Shown here: positions 2,996-33,316 of the stretch, piece by piece
How positions within the stretch are numbered: position 1 is the first letter of the stretch
How the letters are laid out: every line of letters starts with the position of its first letter
Assembly: GCF_001685415.1 (NCBI RefSeq)
Contig: NZ_CP014989.1
Span: 62,001-126,000 of the forward strand
DNA length: 64,000 nucleotides
Direction of reading: 5' to 3'
DNA from: Serinicoccus hydrothermalis
GTDB taxonomy: Bacteria > Actinomycetota > Actinomycetes > Actinomycetales > Dermatophilaceae
Program-made: the position numbers and the translations under genes
The notes under the pieces: model-generated
The model's input: only the letters and a program-made list of their open reading frames with translations
Told to the model about the DNA's origin: nothing
Databases searched by the model: none

Positions 2996-4930
2996 GTGCC
3001 CGCCCTGTCTCCGCTCGCCCGTCCCGACACCGTGCCGCAGCCGGCCGCGACCCCGCCGGAGGTCATCCGCAACTTCTGCATCATCGCGCACATCGACCAC
3101 GGCAAGTCGACCCTGGCCGACCGTATGCTGCAGGTCACCGGGGTGGTCGACCAGCGGCAGATGCGGGCGCAGTACCTCGACCGCATGGACATCGAGCGCG
3201 AGCGCGGCATCACCATCAAGAGCCAGGCCGTGCGGATGCCGTGGACCGCGACGCAGGAGCCTGGTCCACGGAGCAGCGGGAGCGAGCGACCGCAGGGAGC
3301 TCCGAGCCGTGAGCGGACGTATGTCCTGAACATGATCGACACCCCCGGGCACGTGGACTTCACCTACGAGGTGAGCCGGAGCCTGGCGGCGTGCGAGGGG
3401 GCGGTGCTGCTCGTCGACGCCGCGCAGGGGATCGAGGCGCAGACGTTGGCCAACCTCTATCTCGCGATGGAGAACGACCTGGTCATCATCCCGGTCCTCA
3501 ACAAGATCGACCTGCCCTCCGCCCAGCCGGAGAAGTATGCCGAGGAGATCGCCGGCCTCATCGGCTGCGACCCCCAGGACGTGCTGCGGGTGTCCGGCAA
3601 GACGGGGGAGGGGGTCCCCGAGCTGCTGGACCGCATCGTGGACGAGATCCCGGCGCCGGTCGGCGACGCGCAGGCCCCCGCGCGGGCGATGATCTTCGAC
3701 TCGGTCTACGACACCTACCGCGGCGTGGTCACCTACGTCCGGGTCGTCGACGGCAGCCTGTCGCCCCGCGAGCGCATCGCCATGATGTCGACGAAGGCGA
3801 CGCACGAGCTGCTGGAGATCGGCGCGATCAGCCCCGAGCCCGCGGCCACCAAGGGCCTGGGCGTCGGGGAGGTCGGCTACCTCATCACCGGCGTCAAGGA
3901 CGTGCGCCAGTCCAAGGTCGGTGACACCGTGACGGGGGAGCGGCGCCAGGCCACCAAGGCGCTCGGCGGCTACAAGGACCCTCGGCCCATGGTCTTCTCC
4001 GGGCTCTACCCCATCGACGGCTCGGACTACCCGATCCTTCGTGACGCCCTGGACAAGCTCAAGCTCAACGACGCCGCGCTGGTCTACGAGCCGGAGACCT
4101 CCGGCGCCCTCGGCTTCGGCTTCCGCGTCGGCTTCCTGGGGATGCTGCACCTGGAGATCGTCCGCGAGCGGCTGGAGCGGGAGTTCAACCTCGACCTCAT
4201 CTCCACCCTGCCCAACGTGTCCTACGACGTGCTGCTCGACGACGGGACCGAGATCGAGGTGACCAACCCCAGCGAGTTCCCTGCGGGCAAGATCGCCTCG
4301 ATCACCGAGCCCGTGGTCCGCGGCACCGTGCTCGCCCCGAGCGAGTTCATCGGCGCGATCATGGAGCTGTGCCAGTCCCGGCGCGGCACCCTGCTGGGGA
4401 TGGACTACCTCTCCCCGGAGCGGGTGGAGCTGCGCTACACCCTGCCGCTCGCCGAGATCGTCTTCGACTTCTTCGACGCGCTGAAGTCCCGGACCCGGGG
4501 GTATGCCTCCCTTGACTACGAGCCGTCCGGCACCCAGGAGGCGGACCTGGTCAAGGTCGACATCCTGCTGCAGGGCGACACGGTCGACGCCTTCAGCGCG
4601 ATCGTGCACCGCGACAAGGCCTACGCCTACGGCGTGCAGATGGCCGGCAAGCTCAAGGAGCTTATCCCGCGCCAGCAGTTCGAGGTCCCCGTCCAGGCGG
4701 CCATCGGCTCCCGGGTCATCGCCCGGGAGACGATCCGCGCGATCCGCAAGGACGTCCTGGCCAAGTGCTACGGCGGTGACATCAGCCGCAAGCGCAAGCT
4801 GCTGGAGAAGCAGAAGGAGGGCAAGAAGCGGATGAAGATGGTCGGGTCGGTCGAGGTGCCGCAGGAGGCCTTCATCGCCGCGCTCTCCCAGGACGGCAGC
4901 GTCGCCGAGCCGGCCAAGAGCAAGAAGTGA
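2996..4930 (+). CDS. lepA: elongation factor 4 (LepA), translational GTPase with an in-frame palindromic insertion
   Basis: LepA is a ribosome-binding GTPase that back-translocates or remodels stalled ribosomes. The G motifs are clear: AHIDHGKST (G1), DTPGHVDF (G3) and NKID (G4). They are followed by EF-G-like domains II, III and V and the LepA C-terminal region ending in [18 protein letters not shown]. The start is uncertain. I prefer GTG 2996 because a possible -10 box (GAGACT, 2952-2957) lies upstream; ATG 2939 and ATG 2948 are also in frame, and GTG 3032 is the other downstream option. About 18 residues (around 88-106, [18 protein letters not shown]) are inserted just before the G3 motif, where relatives have a short turn. 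Their DNA is a palindrome. The gene overlaps trmB by 4 bases. Confidence 0.95.
3269..3304 (+). repeat. palindromic insertion inside lepA
   Basis: A nested inverted repeat lies here: CGGAGC (3269-3274) pairs with GCTCCG (3299-3304), and inside it GCGG (3276-3279) pairs with CCGC (3290-3293). The 36 bases are in frame and encode a Gly/Ser/Arg/Glu-rich stretch absent from the LepA sequences I remember. It resembles a small mobile palindrome that kept the reading frame. Confidence 0.5.
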
Positions 4931-5742
4931 CGCGACCGGACACCCCCTCCGTCCGCTCGGATTCCGGACCCGACACCCCTTCGGTCCGCCAGGACCCGCC
5001 GAAGGGGCACCAGGCGCACGGGCACCCTGCCGTCGGTCCACGACCGCTGGCCCGGACCCGCTCCTTCACCCGGCGCGGCGGCCGGATGCTCAAGGACTCC
5101 CACCAGGCCGCCTGGGACCGGTATGCCGACGCCCTCGTCCTCGAGGTCCCGCGCCCGCACGGGGCGGACGGGTCGACCGCGGTGCACCCGGCATACCGGA
5201 TCGACCCGGAGCAGGTCTTCGGTCGTGCCGCGCCCCTGGTCGTCGAGATCGGCTCCGGCTCCGGCGACGCCCTGGTGCACGCCGCGACGACGGAACCGGG
5301 GTGGGACTTCCTCGCGCTCGAGGTGTGGCGCCCCGGCATCGGGCACGCGCTGGCCAAGATGGGTGCGGAGCCGCTGACCAACGTGCGCTTCGTCGAGGCC
5401 GACGCGGCGCTCGCGCTGCAGAGCATGCTGCCCGGCGGGAGCGCCCACGAGGTGTGGACCTTCTTCCCCGACCCGTGGCCCAAGAACAAGCACCACAAGC
5501 GCCGCCTCGTCGCCCCCGACTTCGCCGGCACCGTCGCTGACCTCGTGCCGCCCGGTGGGCTCTGGCGCCTCGCCACCGACTGGGCCGACTACGCCGACCA
5601 CATGCGCGCGGTGCTGGACGGGCATACCGCGTGGGAGCTGGTCTCCACCGAGCGCGCGCCGCTGCGCCCGATGACCCGCTTCGAGCGGCGGGGGATCGAG
5701 GCCGGCCGGGAGATCGCCGACCTGGCCTACCGCCGCGTCTGA
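4927..5742 (+). CDS. trmB: tRNA (guanine-N7-)-methyltransferase
   Basis: TrmB makes m7G46 in tRNA variable loops using SAM. The SAM site is [16 protein letters not shown] (about residues 99-114). The family signature [15 protein letters not shown] (about 178-192) and the C-terminal MTRFERRG motif are present. The 271-residue protein has an N-terminal extension of about 45 residues that contains DTPSVR twice, encoded by a near-repeat at 4939-4955 and 4972-4988. The GTG start at 4927 overlaps the lepA stop, so the two genes are translationally coupled. An internal start after the repeat is possible but has no better support. Confidence 0.92.
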
Positions 5743-5776: not shown

Positions 5777-5836
5777 CGCCGAGTGGCCCACCTTGGTGCG
5801 CCACAAGCCCGTTCTGCCGGGTCGAAGTGGGCCGCT
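5777..5836 (+). repeat. palindromic repeat, left copy flanking the AbiEi/DUF559 gene
   Basis: This 60-bp element begins with CGCCGAGTGGCCCAC and ends with GGGCCGCT. Its ends form an inverted repeat (AGTGGCCCAC 5782-5791 with GTGGGCCGCT 5827-5836, 9 of 10 pairs). It aligns without gaps to 6870-6929 at about 43 of 60 positions, in the same orientation. It lies 92 bp before the start codon of the gene it flanks. Confidence 0.7.
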
Positions 5837-5928
5837 GGGCGAAGCGACGAGCCAGGCGGAGCGAACCCCTGACGGTTGCCGCCTGTGGACGGCGGTGGCA
5901 CGGCCCGTGGATCGGGCAGGCTCGACGG

Positions 5929-6852
5929 GTGAGCGCGGCACCCGACCTCGACCCGGTCTTCACCACGGCCCGGGCGAGGGCCGCCGGGCTGTCCCGTCGG
6001 GAGCTGGAGTCAGGGCCCTACCGACAGGTGGTACGAGGCGTGTATGCCCGCGCGCGGGTGTCCGATCGCGCCTGGGTGGACGCCCGGGCGGCGCTCCTCG
6101 TGGCCGCGGTGGACGAGGCCTGGGTGTCGCACCACACTGCGGCCCGTCTCTACGGAGCCGTGGTGCCGGACACCTGCCAGCTCCACGTCTGCGTGCCGCC
6201 GACGGTCAAGCGGCGCCGTCGTGAGGGGGTCGTGGTGCACTGGGGCACCGGGCAGCACCTCCGCTTCCGCGGACTGCGGGTCGCGTCACCGGCCCAGGTC
6301 TTCCTGGAGCTCAGCAGAAGCCTCGAGCTCGTGGACCTGGTCGTCCTGGGCGACTCACTCGTGCGCCGGGGTCGATGCTCTCCCGCGGACCTGCACGCCG
6401 CCGCTGCCGCGTGGAGCGGGCGCGGTGCCCGCATGGCGCGGCGTGCCGCCGGCCTGGTCCGCGCCGGCGTGGACTCGCCGATGGAGACCCGCTGCCGGCT
6501 GCTGCGCGTGCTCGCGGGGCTCCCGGAGCTGGAGACTGACGTGCGTCTCCACGACGCCGACGGAAGGCTGCTCCGGCGGCTGGACGCTGCGGACCGTGCC
6601 ACGCGGACGGCCGTGGAGTACGACGGCCGGCACCATGTGACGCGCGAGGAGCAGTGGGAGGCCGACCTCGGCCGTCGCGAGGAGCTCGAGGACGCCGACT
6701 GGCGGATCATGACCCTCGTCAGCAAGGACATCTTCGCGACACCGGAGCAGACGCTGGAGCGGCAGGAGCGGCTCTTCCGGCAGCGAGGCATACCGGTCGG
6801 GCGTCGTTCGCAGGAGTGGCGGCGCTACTTCCGCGGCCGCGGGCACGCCTGA
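5929..6852 (+). CDS. orphan AbiEi-type winged-helix / DUF559 (Vsr-like PD-(D/E)XK) protein
   Basis: This is a 307-residue protein. The N-terminal half has the layout of AbiEi-type antitoxin/regulator domains: a short HTH-like start, RQVVRGVYA, and SHHTAARLYGAV near residues 67-78. The C-terminal half resembles DUF559/Vsr-like nucleases: SPMETRCRLLRVL, then a D-x14-EYDGRHH core (about residues 224-233) and a basic tail. No toxin or partner gene is adjacent. It is bracketed by two copies of a 60-bp palindromic repeat, 92 bp upstream and 17 bp downstream. A second gene of the same architecture (32216-33151) has the same arrangement with a different repeat. I chose GTG 5929; longer in-frame starts exist upstream but run into the repeat. 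Confidence 0.7.
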   Translation: MSAAPDLDPVFTTARARAAGLSRRELESGPYRQVVRGVYARARVSDRAWVDARAALLVAAVDEAWVSHHTAARLYGAVVPDTCQLHVCVPPTVKRRRREGVVVHWGTGQHLRFRGLRVASPAQVFLELSRSLELVDLVVLGDSLVRRGRCSPADLHAAAAAWSGRGARMARRAAGLVRAGVDSPMETRCRLLRVLAGLPELETDVRLHDADGRLLRRLDAADRATRTAVEYDGRHHVTREEQWEADLGRREELEDADWRIMTLVSKDIFATPEQTLERQERLFRQRGIPVGRRSQEWRRYFRGRGHA

Positions 6853-6869: not shown

Positions 6870-6929
6870 CGCCGAGTGGCCCACTCGGGAGCGCGAAAGG
6901 ACCGATGCACCGCCCCGAACCGGGCCGCT
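6870..6929 (+). repeat. palindromic repeat, right copy flanking the AbiEi/DUF559 gene
   Basis: This is the direct-orientation partner of 5777-5836. The first 15 bases (6870-6884) are identical and the final GGGCCGCT matches too. Its ends pair as CCGAGTGGCCC (6872-6882) with GGGCCGCTCGG (6922-6932), 10 of 11 positions. It begins 17 bp after the stop codon at 6852. Confidence 0.7.
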
Positions 6930-6960
6930 CGGCGTCGCAGCCGAGGACGGGCAGGATGCC

Positions 6961-9272: not shown

Positions 9273-9313
9273 GTGGCCCGGTTCGCGAAGTATGAGTTCG
9301 CGAACCGGGCCAC
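9273..9313. repeat. perfect 17-bp inverted repeat with 7-base loop
   Basis: The arms 9273-9289 (GTGGCCCGGTTCGCGAA) and 9297-9313 are perfectly complementary, with loop GTATGAG. It lies between convergent hemW and the DUF4870 gene, so it could terminate hemW. Its GTGGCCC...GGGCCAC ends resemble the palindromes beside the AbiEi/DUF559 genes, so it may be a stand-alone member of a repeat family. Confidence 0.75.
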
Positions 9314-26453: not shown

Positions 26454-27248
26454 GTGGGCACCCGTGAGCCACGGCGCCCGTTCCCCCACCCCTCGGGCGC
26501 GACGCCGCCACCGGTGCCGCGCGAGCTGGTGCCGGAGCACGTCGCGATCGTCATGGACGGCAACGGCCGCTGGGCCAACCAGCGCGGCCTGAAGCGGACC
26601 CAGGGGCACGAGGCCGGGGAGGCCTCGCTGCTCGACGTCATCGCCGGCGGCATCGAGATCGGCGTCAAGTGCATCAGCGCGTATGCCTTCTCCACCGAGA
26701 ACTGGCGGCGCAGCCCCGACGAGGTGCGCTTCCTCATGGGCTTCAACCGCGCGGTCATCCACCGCCGCCGCGAGGAGCTGGACTCCTGGGGCGTGCGGGT
26801 CCTCTGGTCGGGGCGGCGTCCGCGGCTGTGGCGCTCGGTGATCTCCGAGCTGGAGTCGGCCGAGCGGCAGACGCGGGACAACGACGTCATCACGCTCAAC
26901 TTCTGTGTCAACTACGGCGGCCGGGCCGAGCTCGCCGACGCGGTGCGCCGGATCGGCGAGGACGTCAAGGCCGGTCGCCTGTCCCCACGGGGGATCGACG
27001 AGCGCACGATCGGGCGCTACCTCTACCACCCCGAGGTGCCCGACGTGGACCTCTTCCTGCGCAGCTCGGGGGAGCAGCGCACCTCCAACTTCCTGCTGTG
27101 GCAGAGCGCCTACGCCGAGATGGTCTTCCAGGACGTCCTCTGGCCGGACTACGACCGCCGCGACCTCTGGGCCGCAATCGAGCAGTATGCCTCCCGCGAC
27201 CGCCGCTACGGCGGGGCCGTCGACACGCCCGACCCCACGGGGAAGTGA
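26454..27248 (+). CDS. uppS: isoprenyl (undecaprenyl) diphosphate synthase
   Basis: UppS is a cis-prenyltransferase that makes the long-chain polyprenyl diphosphate carrier for cell-wall synthesis. The signature [16 protein letters not shown] (about residues 29-44) with its catalytic Asp, [11 protein letters not shown] (about 76-86), and the C-terminal [20 protein letters not shown] with Arg and Glu are all present. Length 264. GTG 26454 starts on the base after the recO stop. Its own stop codon lies inside the left arm of a 31-bp perfect hairpin. Confidence 0.95.
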
Positions 27249-27313
27249 CCACGGGATAGCACAACCTTCATCGGCAAAGTTCCCGATGAAGGTTGTGCTA
27301 TCCCGTGGTCACT
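27244..27313. repeat. perfect 31-bp inverted repeat at a convergent gene end
   Basis: The left arm 27244-27274 and right arm 27283-27313 are perfectly complementary over 31 bp, with an 8-base loop (CAAAGTTC). GC content is near 50%, far below the surrounding DNA. It covers the uppS stop codon and ends 14 bp before the stop of the opposite gene (27327). It would work as a bidirectional terminator, but its length and composition also fit a small mobile palindrome. Its ends begin AGTGACCACG. Confidence 0.85.
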
Positions 27314-32067: not shown

Positions 32068-32137
32068 CGTGGCCCCGCGGTTCGTCACCAACCCCGCGCA
32101 TACCTGGTGGGGGAGACGGAGCAACCGCGGGGCCACG
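32068..32137 (+). repeat. palindromic repeat, left copy flanking the second AbiEi/DUF559 gene
   Basis: The arms CGTGGCCCCGCGGTT (32068-32082) and AACCGCGGGGCCACG (32123-32137) are perfectly complementary, with a 40-base loop. The inner 25 bases 32092-32116 are identical to 33193-33217 on the other side of the gene. It lies 78 bp before the ATG at 32216. Confidence 0.78.
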
Positions 32138-32215
32138 GGGCGAGAGCGGGGTGTCTTATCCACAGATCTCCGGGACGCCCGCCACGCGGCCCGGAACCCC
32201 GGCACGCTGGGCAGG

Positions 32216-33151
32216 ATGACGAACGATCTCGACCTCAGCGCGCTGCGCGCCTATCTCCTCGGGCACGAGCGGGTCATCACCGCGCGAGCGGCACGGACCG
32301 AGCTGGGTCTCACGGCGTCGGACCTGTCGCGGCTGGTGACGCGGGGAGTCCTGGTCCGCGTGTGCCGCGGCGGGTATGCCGACGCCTCGGCCTTCGTGGA
32401 CGCCTCGCCGGAGGAGCGCCACGAGCTGCGGCTCCGGGCGGTGCTGGCCACCAACGTGGGGTATGCCGCCAGTCACCAGAGCGCAGCCCTCATGCTCGGC
32501 CTCCCGATGATGGCGGCCGACCTCTCGCGCATCCACGTCGTGCGACGCACGGGGAGCGGGCACGGCCGTCGGCGTTCCGCCTTCACGGTCCACGAGGACC
32601 GGCCGACCGGCTTTCACCAGGTGCGGGGGCTCTGGGTGGTCGCCGCGGCGGATGCCGTGATGGGCGCCATGCGAGGCTCGGGCGACATCTCGGCACAGGC
32701 CGTGGCCGACGCCACCCTGCGTCTGGGGCTGGTGAGCCAGGAGGAGCTCGGCCGGCTGGCCGCGCGCGGTGGTGCCGGGGTGCGACGGGCGGTCGAGCAT
32801 GCCGACCCCTCGTCGGAGTCCGTCGGGGAGAGCGCGGCACGGCAGGTGATGCGGCTGCTCGGCTATGTCGTGCGGACGCAGGTGGAGTTCCGGGACGACC
32901 GCGGGTTCGTCGGCCGGGTCGACTTCCACCTGCCCGAGCTGGGAGTCGTCGTCGAGTTCGACGGGGCGGTGAAGTATGCCGGTGCCGAGGGCCGCCAGGC
33001 GCTCGTCCGCGAGAAGGCCCGGGAGGACCGGTTGCGCGCGCTGGGCCTGGCCGTGGTCCGGCTCGTGTGGTCGGACCTGAGCGACCCGGAGCTGGTCCGC
33101 CGCAAGATCGAGCAGGCAGCGGCGTCGGTGCGCGCCCGGCACACCGCCTGA
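32216..33151 (+). CDS. orphan AbiEi-type winged-helix / DUF559 (Vsr-like PD-(D/E)XK) protein
   Basis: This 311-residue protein has an N-terminal winged-helix region (RAARTELGLTASDLSRLVTRGVL, about residues 22-44), the AbiEi-like SHQSAALMLGLP block (about 85-96), and a C-terminal nuclease-like domain: SVGESAARQVMRLLGYVV, VGRVDFHLPELGVVVEFDG (about 233-251) and KAREDRLRALGLAVVRLVW. The VDF-x8-VEFDG spacing fits a PD-(D/E)XK core. It has no partner toxin gene. It shares architecture, though little direct identity, with the gene at 5929-6852, and is likewise bracketed by two copies of a palindromic repeat. The start is ATG 32216. Confidence 0.72.
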   Translation: MTNDLDLSALRAYLLGHERVITARAARTELGLTASDLSRLVTRGVLVRVCRGGYADASAFVDASPEERHELRLRAVLATNVGYAASHQSAALMLGLPMMAADLSRIHVVRRTGSGHGRRRSAFTVHEDRPTGFHQVRGLWVVAAADAVMGAMRGSGDISAQAVADATLRLGLVSQEELGRLAARGGAGVRRAVEHADPSSESVGESAARQVMRLLGYVVRTQVEFRDDRGFVGRVDFHLPELGVVVEFDGAVKYAGAEGRQALVREKAREDRLRALGLAVVRLVWSDLSDPELVRRKIEQAAASVRARHTA

Positions 33152-33171
33152 GCCCCCACGGTTGGTCTCGA

Positions 33172-33234
33172 GCCCCACGGTTCCTCCGCCGGCCCCGCGC
33201 ATACCTGGTGGGGGAGAGGGATCAACCGTGGGGC
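33172..33234 (+). repeat. palindromic repeat, right copy flanking the second AbiEi/DUF559 gene
   Basis: The arms GCCCCACGGTT (33172-33182) and AACCGTGGGGC (33224-33234) pair perfectly over 11 bp around a 41-base loop, which includes the 25 bases shared with the left copy. It begins 20 bp after the stop codon. Partial extra copies lie next to it: CCCCACGGTT near 33155-33164 and GCAACCGCGGGGC at 33279-33291. Confidence 0.78.
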
Positions 33235-33316
33235 CACCGACGAGGCGCGGGGGTGCGAGGGGGAGAGCGGGACCTCGAGCAACCGCGGGGCAGCCGGCCG
33301 AGCGCGGCGCGGCCCG

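Follow-up and report, generated by a model that had tools for sequence, protein, structure and literature searches.

In Serinicoccus hydrothermalis, genes of a family that has received little study, whose products combine an AbiEi-like wHTH with a predicted Vsr/homing-type nuclease domain, are mostly flanked on both sides by locus-specific palindromic repeats, and some of these repeat families are dispersed through the chromosome as solo copies. We consider it probable that this arrangement resembles a REPtron in its workings but uses an enzyme other than an HUH protein, and that the AbiEi-like and nuclease-bearing protein keeps, spreads and homogenises its own palindrome. The window, by which we mean the whole stretch of 64,000 nucleotides analysed, corresponds to C1:62001-126000 of this genome (G000).

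Results

The focal gene and its two palindromes

The focal gene lies between znuA and glyS (Table 1). The hairpins that the initial annotation had placed around it were recovered at exactly the same coordinates, with the first ending 78 nt before the ATG at 32216, the second beginning 20 nt after the stop codon and 25 bases identical between them (32092-32116 and 33193-33217); the likeness of the two repeats reaches 60 nt at 83%. The view that chance is unlikely was also borne out, as the 21-nt core, with up to three mismatches allowed, occurs in the window only at the two flanking places, against 0.02 expected from dinucleotide shuffles, and as such pairs are found family-wide. Throughout the genome of 3,597,394 bases, the focal 70-bp repeat is present as the two gene-flanking copies and one 19-bp fragment, and the whole-genome search found no dispersed solo copy apart from this fragment. 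The focal locus is a low-copy case, which taken alone would not reveal the system.

Table 1. Features of the window at the focal locus, the paralogous first locus and a solo palindrome
Feature	Position in window	Strand	Description
Upstream palindromic repeat, focal locus	32068..32137	.	Perfect 15-bp arms (32068-32082/32123-32137), 40-nt loop
Gene for 311-aa protein, focal locus	32216..33151	+	AbiEi-like wHTH and AbiEi domain (~residues 5-197), predicted Vsr/I-Bth0305I-like nuclease domain (~198-307)
Extra half-arm CCCCACGGTTG, focal locus	33154..33164	.	Just 3' of the stop codon
Downstream palindromic repeat, focal locus	33172..33234	.	Perfect 11-bp arms (33172-33182/33224-33234), 41-nt loop
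Extra half-copy GAGCAACCGCGGGGC, focal locus	33277..33291	.	Half-copy of the right arm
Upstream repeat, paralogous first locus	~5777..5841	.	Hairpin
Paralogous AbiEi/nuclease gene, first locus	~5929..6852	+	307 aa; sub-threshold matches to MTES_1575 and DUF559; GTG taken as start
Downstream repeat, paralogous first locus	~6870..6934	.	Hairpin
Solo palindrome	27244..27313	.	No gene; its type flanks L194 (a gene of G012) and L186 (G019)

The flanking hairpins of the paralogous first locus are also related to each other, with a weaker repeat pair of 30.2 bits. G012 has the solo palindrome of the window in the identical position, where neither G015 nor G004 showed one; in G019, one lies in the matching interval but is some 400 nt more distant from the shared flank. 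Elsewhere in the window, a hairpin at 9273-9313, with perfect 17-bp arms around the 7-nt loop GTATGAG, is unclassified and is possibly another solo palindrome, and a dispersed intergenic repeat pair (window 4920-5096 and L163:18874-19126) matches no flank of the gene family. Rfam returned two tRNAs only in the window.

The encoded protein

The two-domain AbiEi/DUF559 layout read by the initial annotation stood in its AbiEi half, the predicted structure of the focal protein aligning to 6y8q over 180 residues, and in part in its nuclease half. The DUF559 match of the focal protein reaches 13.3 bits, below the Pfam cut-off of 20.6, whereas two sister proteins, L042 (28.2 bits) and L046 (23.0 bits), exceed it; the predicted fold, together with these sisters, suggests a C-terminal nuclease domain in the focal protein as well. 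The predicted structure matches a Vsr-type fold with conserved acidic residues, and E205, D236, E247, D249 and K253 are invariant; the Vsr and I-Bth0305I nucleases are of the EDxHD type. Searching solved structures by sequence gave weak, unrelated matches only. Mean entropy was 2.63 in the recognition helix, 2.39 over the whole wHTH and 1.55 in the nuclease domain, suggestive of a hypervariable recognition helix.

Pfam, PADLOC and fold matches agree on AbiEi plus Vsr-like for the encoded protein family. An HUH/Y1 transposase was rejected as the encoded protein on these positive matches, and there was no HUH fold among the fold matches listed. The focal protein had no match in 72,556 plasmid records or 50,697 phage records, and this genome holds no paralogue more than 51% identical to it. 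Downstream of the genes at the eight of 11 own loci that were scanned, no AbiEii (DUF1814) toxin gene was present and other families were found; the gene upstream of the focal gene is znuA. An AbiE toxin–antitoxin reading was rejected on the absence of the toxin gene at these eight loci.

Repeat pairs across the gene family

Searches with AbiEi_4, the focal protein and DUF559 yielded 11 family loci in this genome (L036-L046), the gene start or stop being approximate for L040 and L044. A repeat pair was defined as the best repeat common to the 400-base upstream and downstream flanks, with a threshold of 30 bits. Such a pair is present at 10 of the 11 loci, only just so at L036 and L038; L043 fell short at 24.3 bits and nonetheless has short in-register matches. 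The same test was passed by eight of 620 random 940-bp segments and by one of 161 ordinary called genes (700-1300 bp).

The pairs extend beyond this genome. In the genus set of 71 loci, composed of the first 60 of 99 matches listed for 12 of the 30 congeners plus the 11 own loci, 50 have a pair and 21 have none at 30 bits. The best 80 of 315 confirmed named relatives included 77 with both flanks, of which 47 passed; 12 of the 77 bear same-genus names, three of these repeating genus loci, and leaving out the 12 gives pairs at 41 of 65 loci in other genera (24 without), compared with 51 of 4160 mismatched upstream/downstream combinations. These counts support the proposal, made from the focal and first loci, that genes and palindromes form a so far undescribed system and that a separate palindrome belongs to each gene.

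Strong hairpins (score of at least 12) occur in 35 of the 71 upstream and 28 of the 71 downstream flanks in the genus set, versus four of 150 random, mostly coding, pieces. In the 50 genus pairs, the median distance of the repeat centre is 128 nt upstream of the start codon and 66 nt downstream of the stop codon, and the paired matches are direct in 24 cases and inverted in 26. Including the loop, the palindromes of this genome are about 40-100 bp long. The flanking repeats of L039 and L046 are short tandem arrays (units of about 22 and 30 bp), inverted across the gene, rather than single hairpins. The gene of L044 (G000 C1:2746293-2747193) is split over frames and is likely a pseudogene; the repeats on its two sides nevertheless retain 92% identity across 60 nt.

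Dispersal of the repeats

The 72-bp palindrome of the L041 type has 15 full-length places and one partial place genome-wide, two flanking the gene and 13 being sharp-ended solo copies. All 15 copies, with a mean identity of 90.7%, lie outside called genes; the composition-based caller rates 86.5% of the sample as coding. Base-pair covariation among them was not clearly above shuffles, 40 of 500 of which reached the same score, and was therefore left out of the evidence.

In the dispersal sample, which comprises 464 kb of this genome (the window plus L157-L176; 13%), the flank repeats of five of the 11 own loci have copies elsewhere, with nine places for L039, two each for L041, L044 and L046, and one for L045. 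De novo clustering of the intergenic DNA of this sample gave five repeat clusters, four of which include members matching gene-family flanks (12 of 21 members). The initial annotation had raised the question of whether such repeats are equally common beside unrelated genes. Flanking pairs are not, as given by the one in 161 above; single dispersed copies do occur there, a dispersed repeat standing in a flank of 19 of the 161 ordinary genes, and seven of the 12 such genes listed adjoin solo copies of gene-family repeats. The dispersal of these repeats as solo copies, like the repeat turnover described below, had escaped that annotation.

Orthologous gene sites and repeat turnover

Polymorphic insertion, which the initial annotation had named as something to look for, exists at the focal site, which is empty in 14 of the 30 congeners, occupied in two (G018 and G029) and unclassified in 14. 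At the empty sites, both flanks align with 2-48 bases between them; no insertion ends or target duplications were resolved from these sites, the congener flanks being too diverged. The proteins encoded at the znuA/glyS site (L037, L211 and L212) form one clade with a support of 0.999.

Many family genes stay at orthologous sites while their repeats turn over. Orthologous sites account for 97 of the 2485 locus pairs in the genus set. For the orthologues L041 and L194, the within-locus repeat scores are 103 and 105 bits, versus 42 and 28 bits between species. Among the 81 orthologous-site pairs with a protein identity of at least 40%, the mean score within loci exceeds the mean between species in 46, and in 23 each of the two within-locus scores is higher than either score between species. 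The latter holds for none of the six closest orthologous pairs, as expected from their recent divergence. A degraded remnant of an L038-group gene was also found at an orthologous site (L275, G015 C1:1921500-1925500).

Two solo sites of this genome were compared with congener loci. The flanks of solo site L246 align in G012, G019 and G015, where a palindrome of the other type occupies the same place with identities of 55, 50 and 50%, respectively. At solo site L238, the interval holds the other type in G012 and G015 (51 and 54% identity), in a less clean comparison, since the conserved flanks are separated by about 208 nt in this genome, by 712 nt in G012 and by 342 nt in G015. The congener loci used for these two sites had been chosen, non-randomly, for carrying the other repeat type; the comparisons therefore show that such sites exist and not how common they are. 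The solo repeats are 50-55% identical between species, versus a mean of 90.7% among the 15 copies of this genome. Independent point mutation would hardly give this combination; conversion or repeated replacement could. One further interval holds a solo L041-type palindrome in G000 (L244) and a different family gene with its own repeats in G029 (L213), and sites of this kind may be hotspots.

Covariation of proteins and repeats

Protein clade and repeat type, whose covariation the initial annotation had singled out as the point to examine, show some covariation, albeit imperfect. At non-orthologous sites in the genus, similar repeats (45 bits) were found in four of 88 pairs with a protein identity of at least 50% versus one of 2300 pairs below it, and in other genera (40 bits) in 15 of 98 versus three of 1975 pairs, or 15 of 100 versus five of 2827 when the 12 same-genus names are included, the locus pairs in all these counts not being independent.

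Among 31 genomes, the L041 repeat type occurs in four, and the type of the solo palindrome at 27244-27313 in five, with 52 matches in G012, 43 in G019, 20 in G015, four in G000 and two in G003, one palindrome usually being counted twice. An L041-group gene (at least 57% identity) is present in G000, G012, G013, G019 and G030. G013 and G030 thus have the gene with neither tested repeat type. In G015 and G003 it is the other way round, repeats being present and an L041-group gene absent. This imperfect co-distribution could result from gene loss before repeat loss, or from further repeat types.

Discussion

REP-element systems are known from E. coli, and the system described here has the look of a second one that evolved independently. 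A REPtron consists of a TnpA-REP (RAYT) gene and its cognate REP palindromes (PMC8266576; PMC6006769; PMC3733652). As in the REPtrons outlined in two of these sources, the gene lies between its own palindromes, the palindromes (here those of some families) are dispersed among genes, and several types, each with its own gene, coexist in one genome (PMC8266576; PMC6006769); the gene also acts as a resident rather than a mobile element there, and the repeats co-evolve with the protein. Flanking on both sides was found here at 10 of 11 own, 50 of 71 genus and 41 of 65 other-genus loci. Intergenic dispersal was found for the 13 solo copies of the L041 type and for five of the 11 loci in the 13% sample, the focal repeat being undispersed. 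Residence of the gene is seen in the 97 of 2485 pairs at orthologous sites and in a focal protein without plasmid or phage matches. The differences concern the palindromes, which span 20-50 bp in REPtrons and are longer here, with a loop, and above all the enzyme, an HUH/Y1 transposase there and an AbiEi-Vsr-type protein here. Because the REPtron enzyme is an HUH protein and this one is not, the present system is not a REPtron member, though it works like one.

Considering these results, we propose the following scenario. The gene would be a chromosomally resident and mostly vertically inherited 'repeat-keeper', whose product would recognise the palindrome flanking its own gene and cut or nick it. 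Since the AbiEi family is known to bind inverted repeats and the C-terminal domain has a predicted nuclease fold, recognition and cutting of the palindrome by the protein is the simplest reading. After the cut, the palindrome may be copied from another copy or may be reinserted into existing palindromes and other intergenic sites, so that copies would spread and those of one genome would converge on the type recognised by its current protein. The focal locus would then be a low-copy member left with just its two gene-flanking copies. Locus-specific pairs, the dispersal of some families, repeat turnover, orthologous gene sites and the predicted fold are the steps of this scenario that were observed.

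A more specific form of the scenario, which we put forward tentatively and would not yet bet on, is a homing-like drive, in which the nuclease cuts palindromes of its type chromosome-wide and the cut palindromes are rewritten when they are repaired from the copies beside the gene. If so, nuclease and palindrome families would co-evolve and sweep through genomes, and Actinobacteria would have a class of repeat systems, selfish or domesticated, that operate without an HUH transposase.

The palindromes might instead be autoregulatory operators of the AbiEi-like domain, with the downstream hairpin resembling a terminator and the solo copies forming a regulon or co-opted terminators. This reading draws on the AbiEi antitoxins, which bind inverted repeats in their own promoter and thereby autoregulate (PMC7319586), and it would suit an upstream repeat centred at a median of 128 nt before the start. 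It is, however, unlikely, as the downstream copy looks like the upstream one and none of the 11 L041-type copies with both neighbours called (of 15) stands in a divergent arrangement, which is poor placing for an operator. Furthermore, copies are more alike within a genome than at the same place across species, and selection on binding sites alone would hardly yield that.

An autonomous transposon, in which the repeat–gene–repeat unit is mobile with the repeats as its ends and the solo repeats are MITEs or excision scars, is less probable still. A focal site that is both empty and occupied within the genus and sharp-ended solo 72-bp copies are what such an element might leave; similar repeats at different gene sites are, however, rare (five of 2388 non-orthologous pairs), this genome has no close paralogue of the focal protein, neither plasmids nor phages in the records searched match it, and no target duplication was resolved between the too-diverged flanks.

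Least probable of all is that the repeats are moved by another enzyme, such as a Y1/RAYT transposase, and that the AbiEi-nuclease gene is simply prone to capture between two of them. In favour of this reading, HUH enzymes are the presumed movers of known REPs (PMC8266576), and eight of the 15 L041-type copies have GTAG or CTAC in their loop (L237-L251, loop positions 30-43). Against it, repeat type covaries with gene clade, and among the genes compared the paired flanking position is a specific trait of the AbiEi-nuclease family. Classical REPs carry GTAG at the hairpin foot, whereas in the L041 family, the one scanned, no GTAG/CGTC tag was found within the 12 outermost bases of the two arms in any of the 15 copies.

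The family can also be compared with other known systems. It shares with AbiE type IV toxin–antitoxin systems the AbiEi fold, and AbiEi binds inverted repeats; it differs in the added C-terminal nuclease domain suggested by the predicted fold, in the lack of an AbiEii-type gene downstream at the eight loci scanned, and in repeats that lie on both sides and are dispersed. Unlike that of the Vsr and I-Bth0305I nucleases, the target here would be a palindrome. TIRtrons, RAYT-like genes with long TIRs, likewise sit between locus-specific repeats, a number of which belong to families of moderate abundance, but encode tyrosine transposases (PMC3733652). In a literature search that was weak on subscription journals, no paper was found that reports such a connection between palindromes and genes of the AbiEi or DUF559 kind.

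A second enzyme family, unrelated to the first and associated with a dispersed set of palindromes, would be a candidate for explaining orphan repeats, and it would give a possible function to actinobacterial genes recognised so far only as AbiEi or DUF559 proteins. For studies of specificity, the family also offers many naturally occurring proteins, each paired with a candidate recognition site.

A separate sequence bias was observed in the same 464 kb (the window plus L157-L176). The octamer GGTATGCC/GGCATACC is about 21-fold over-represented, with 317 occurrences on both strands versus 20 for GGTACGCC, and the TAT share of TAY is 68% before GCC, 38% before GCG and at most 16% in the other contexts shown. 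The pattern looks like either a C-to-T bias tied to this motif or selection in the motif's favour.
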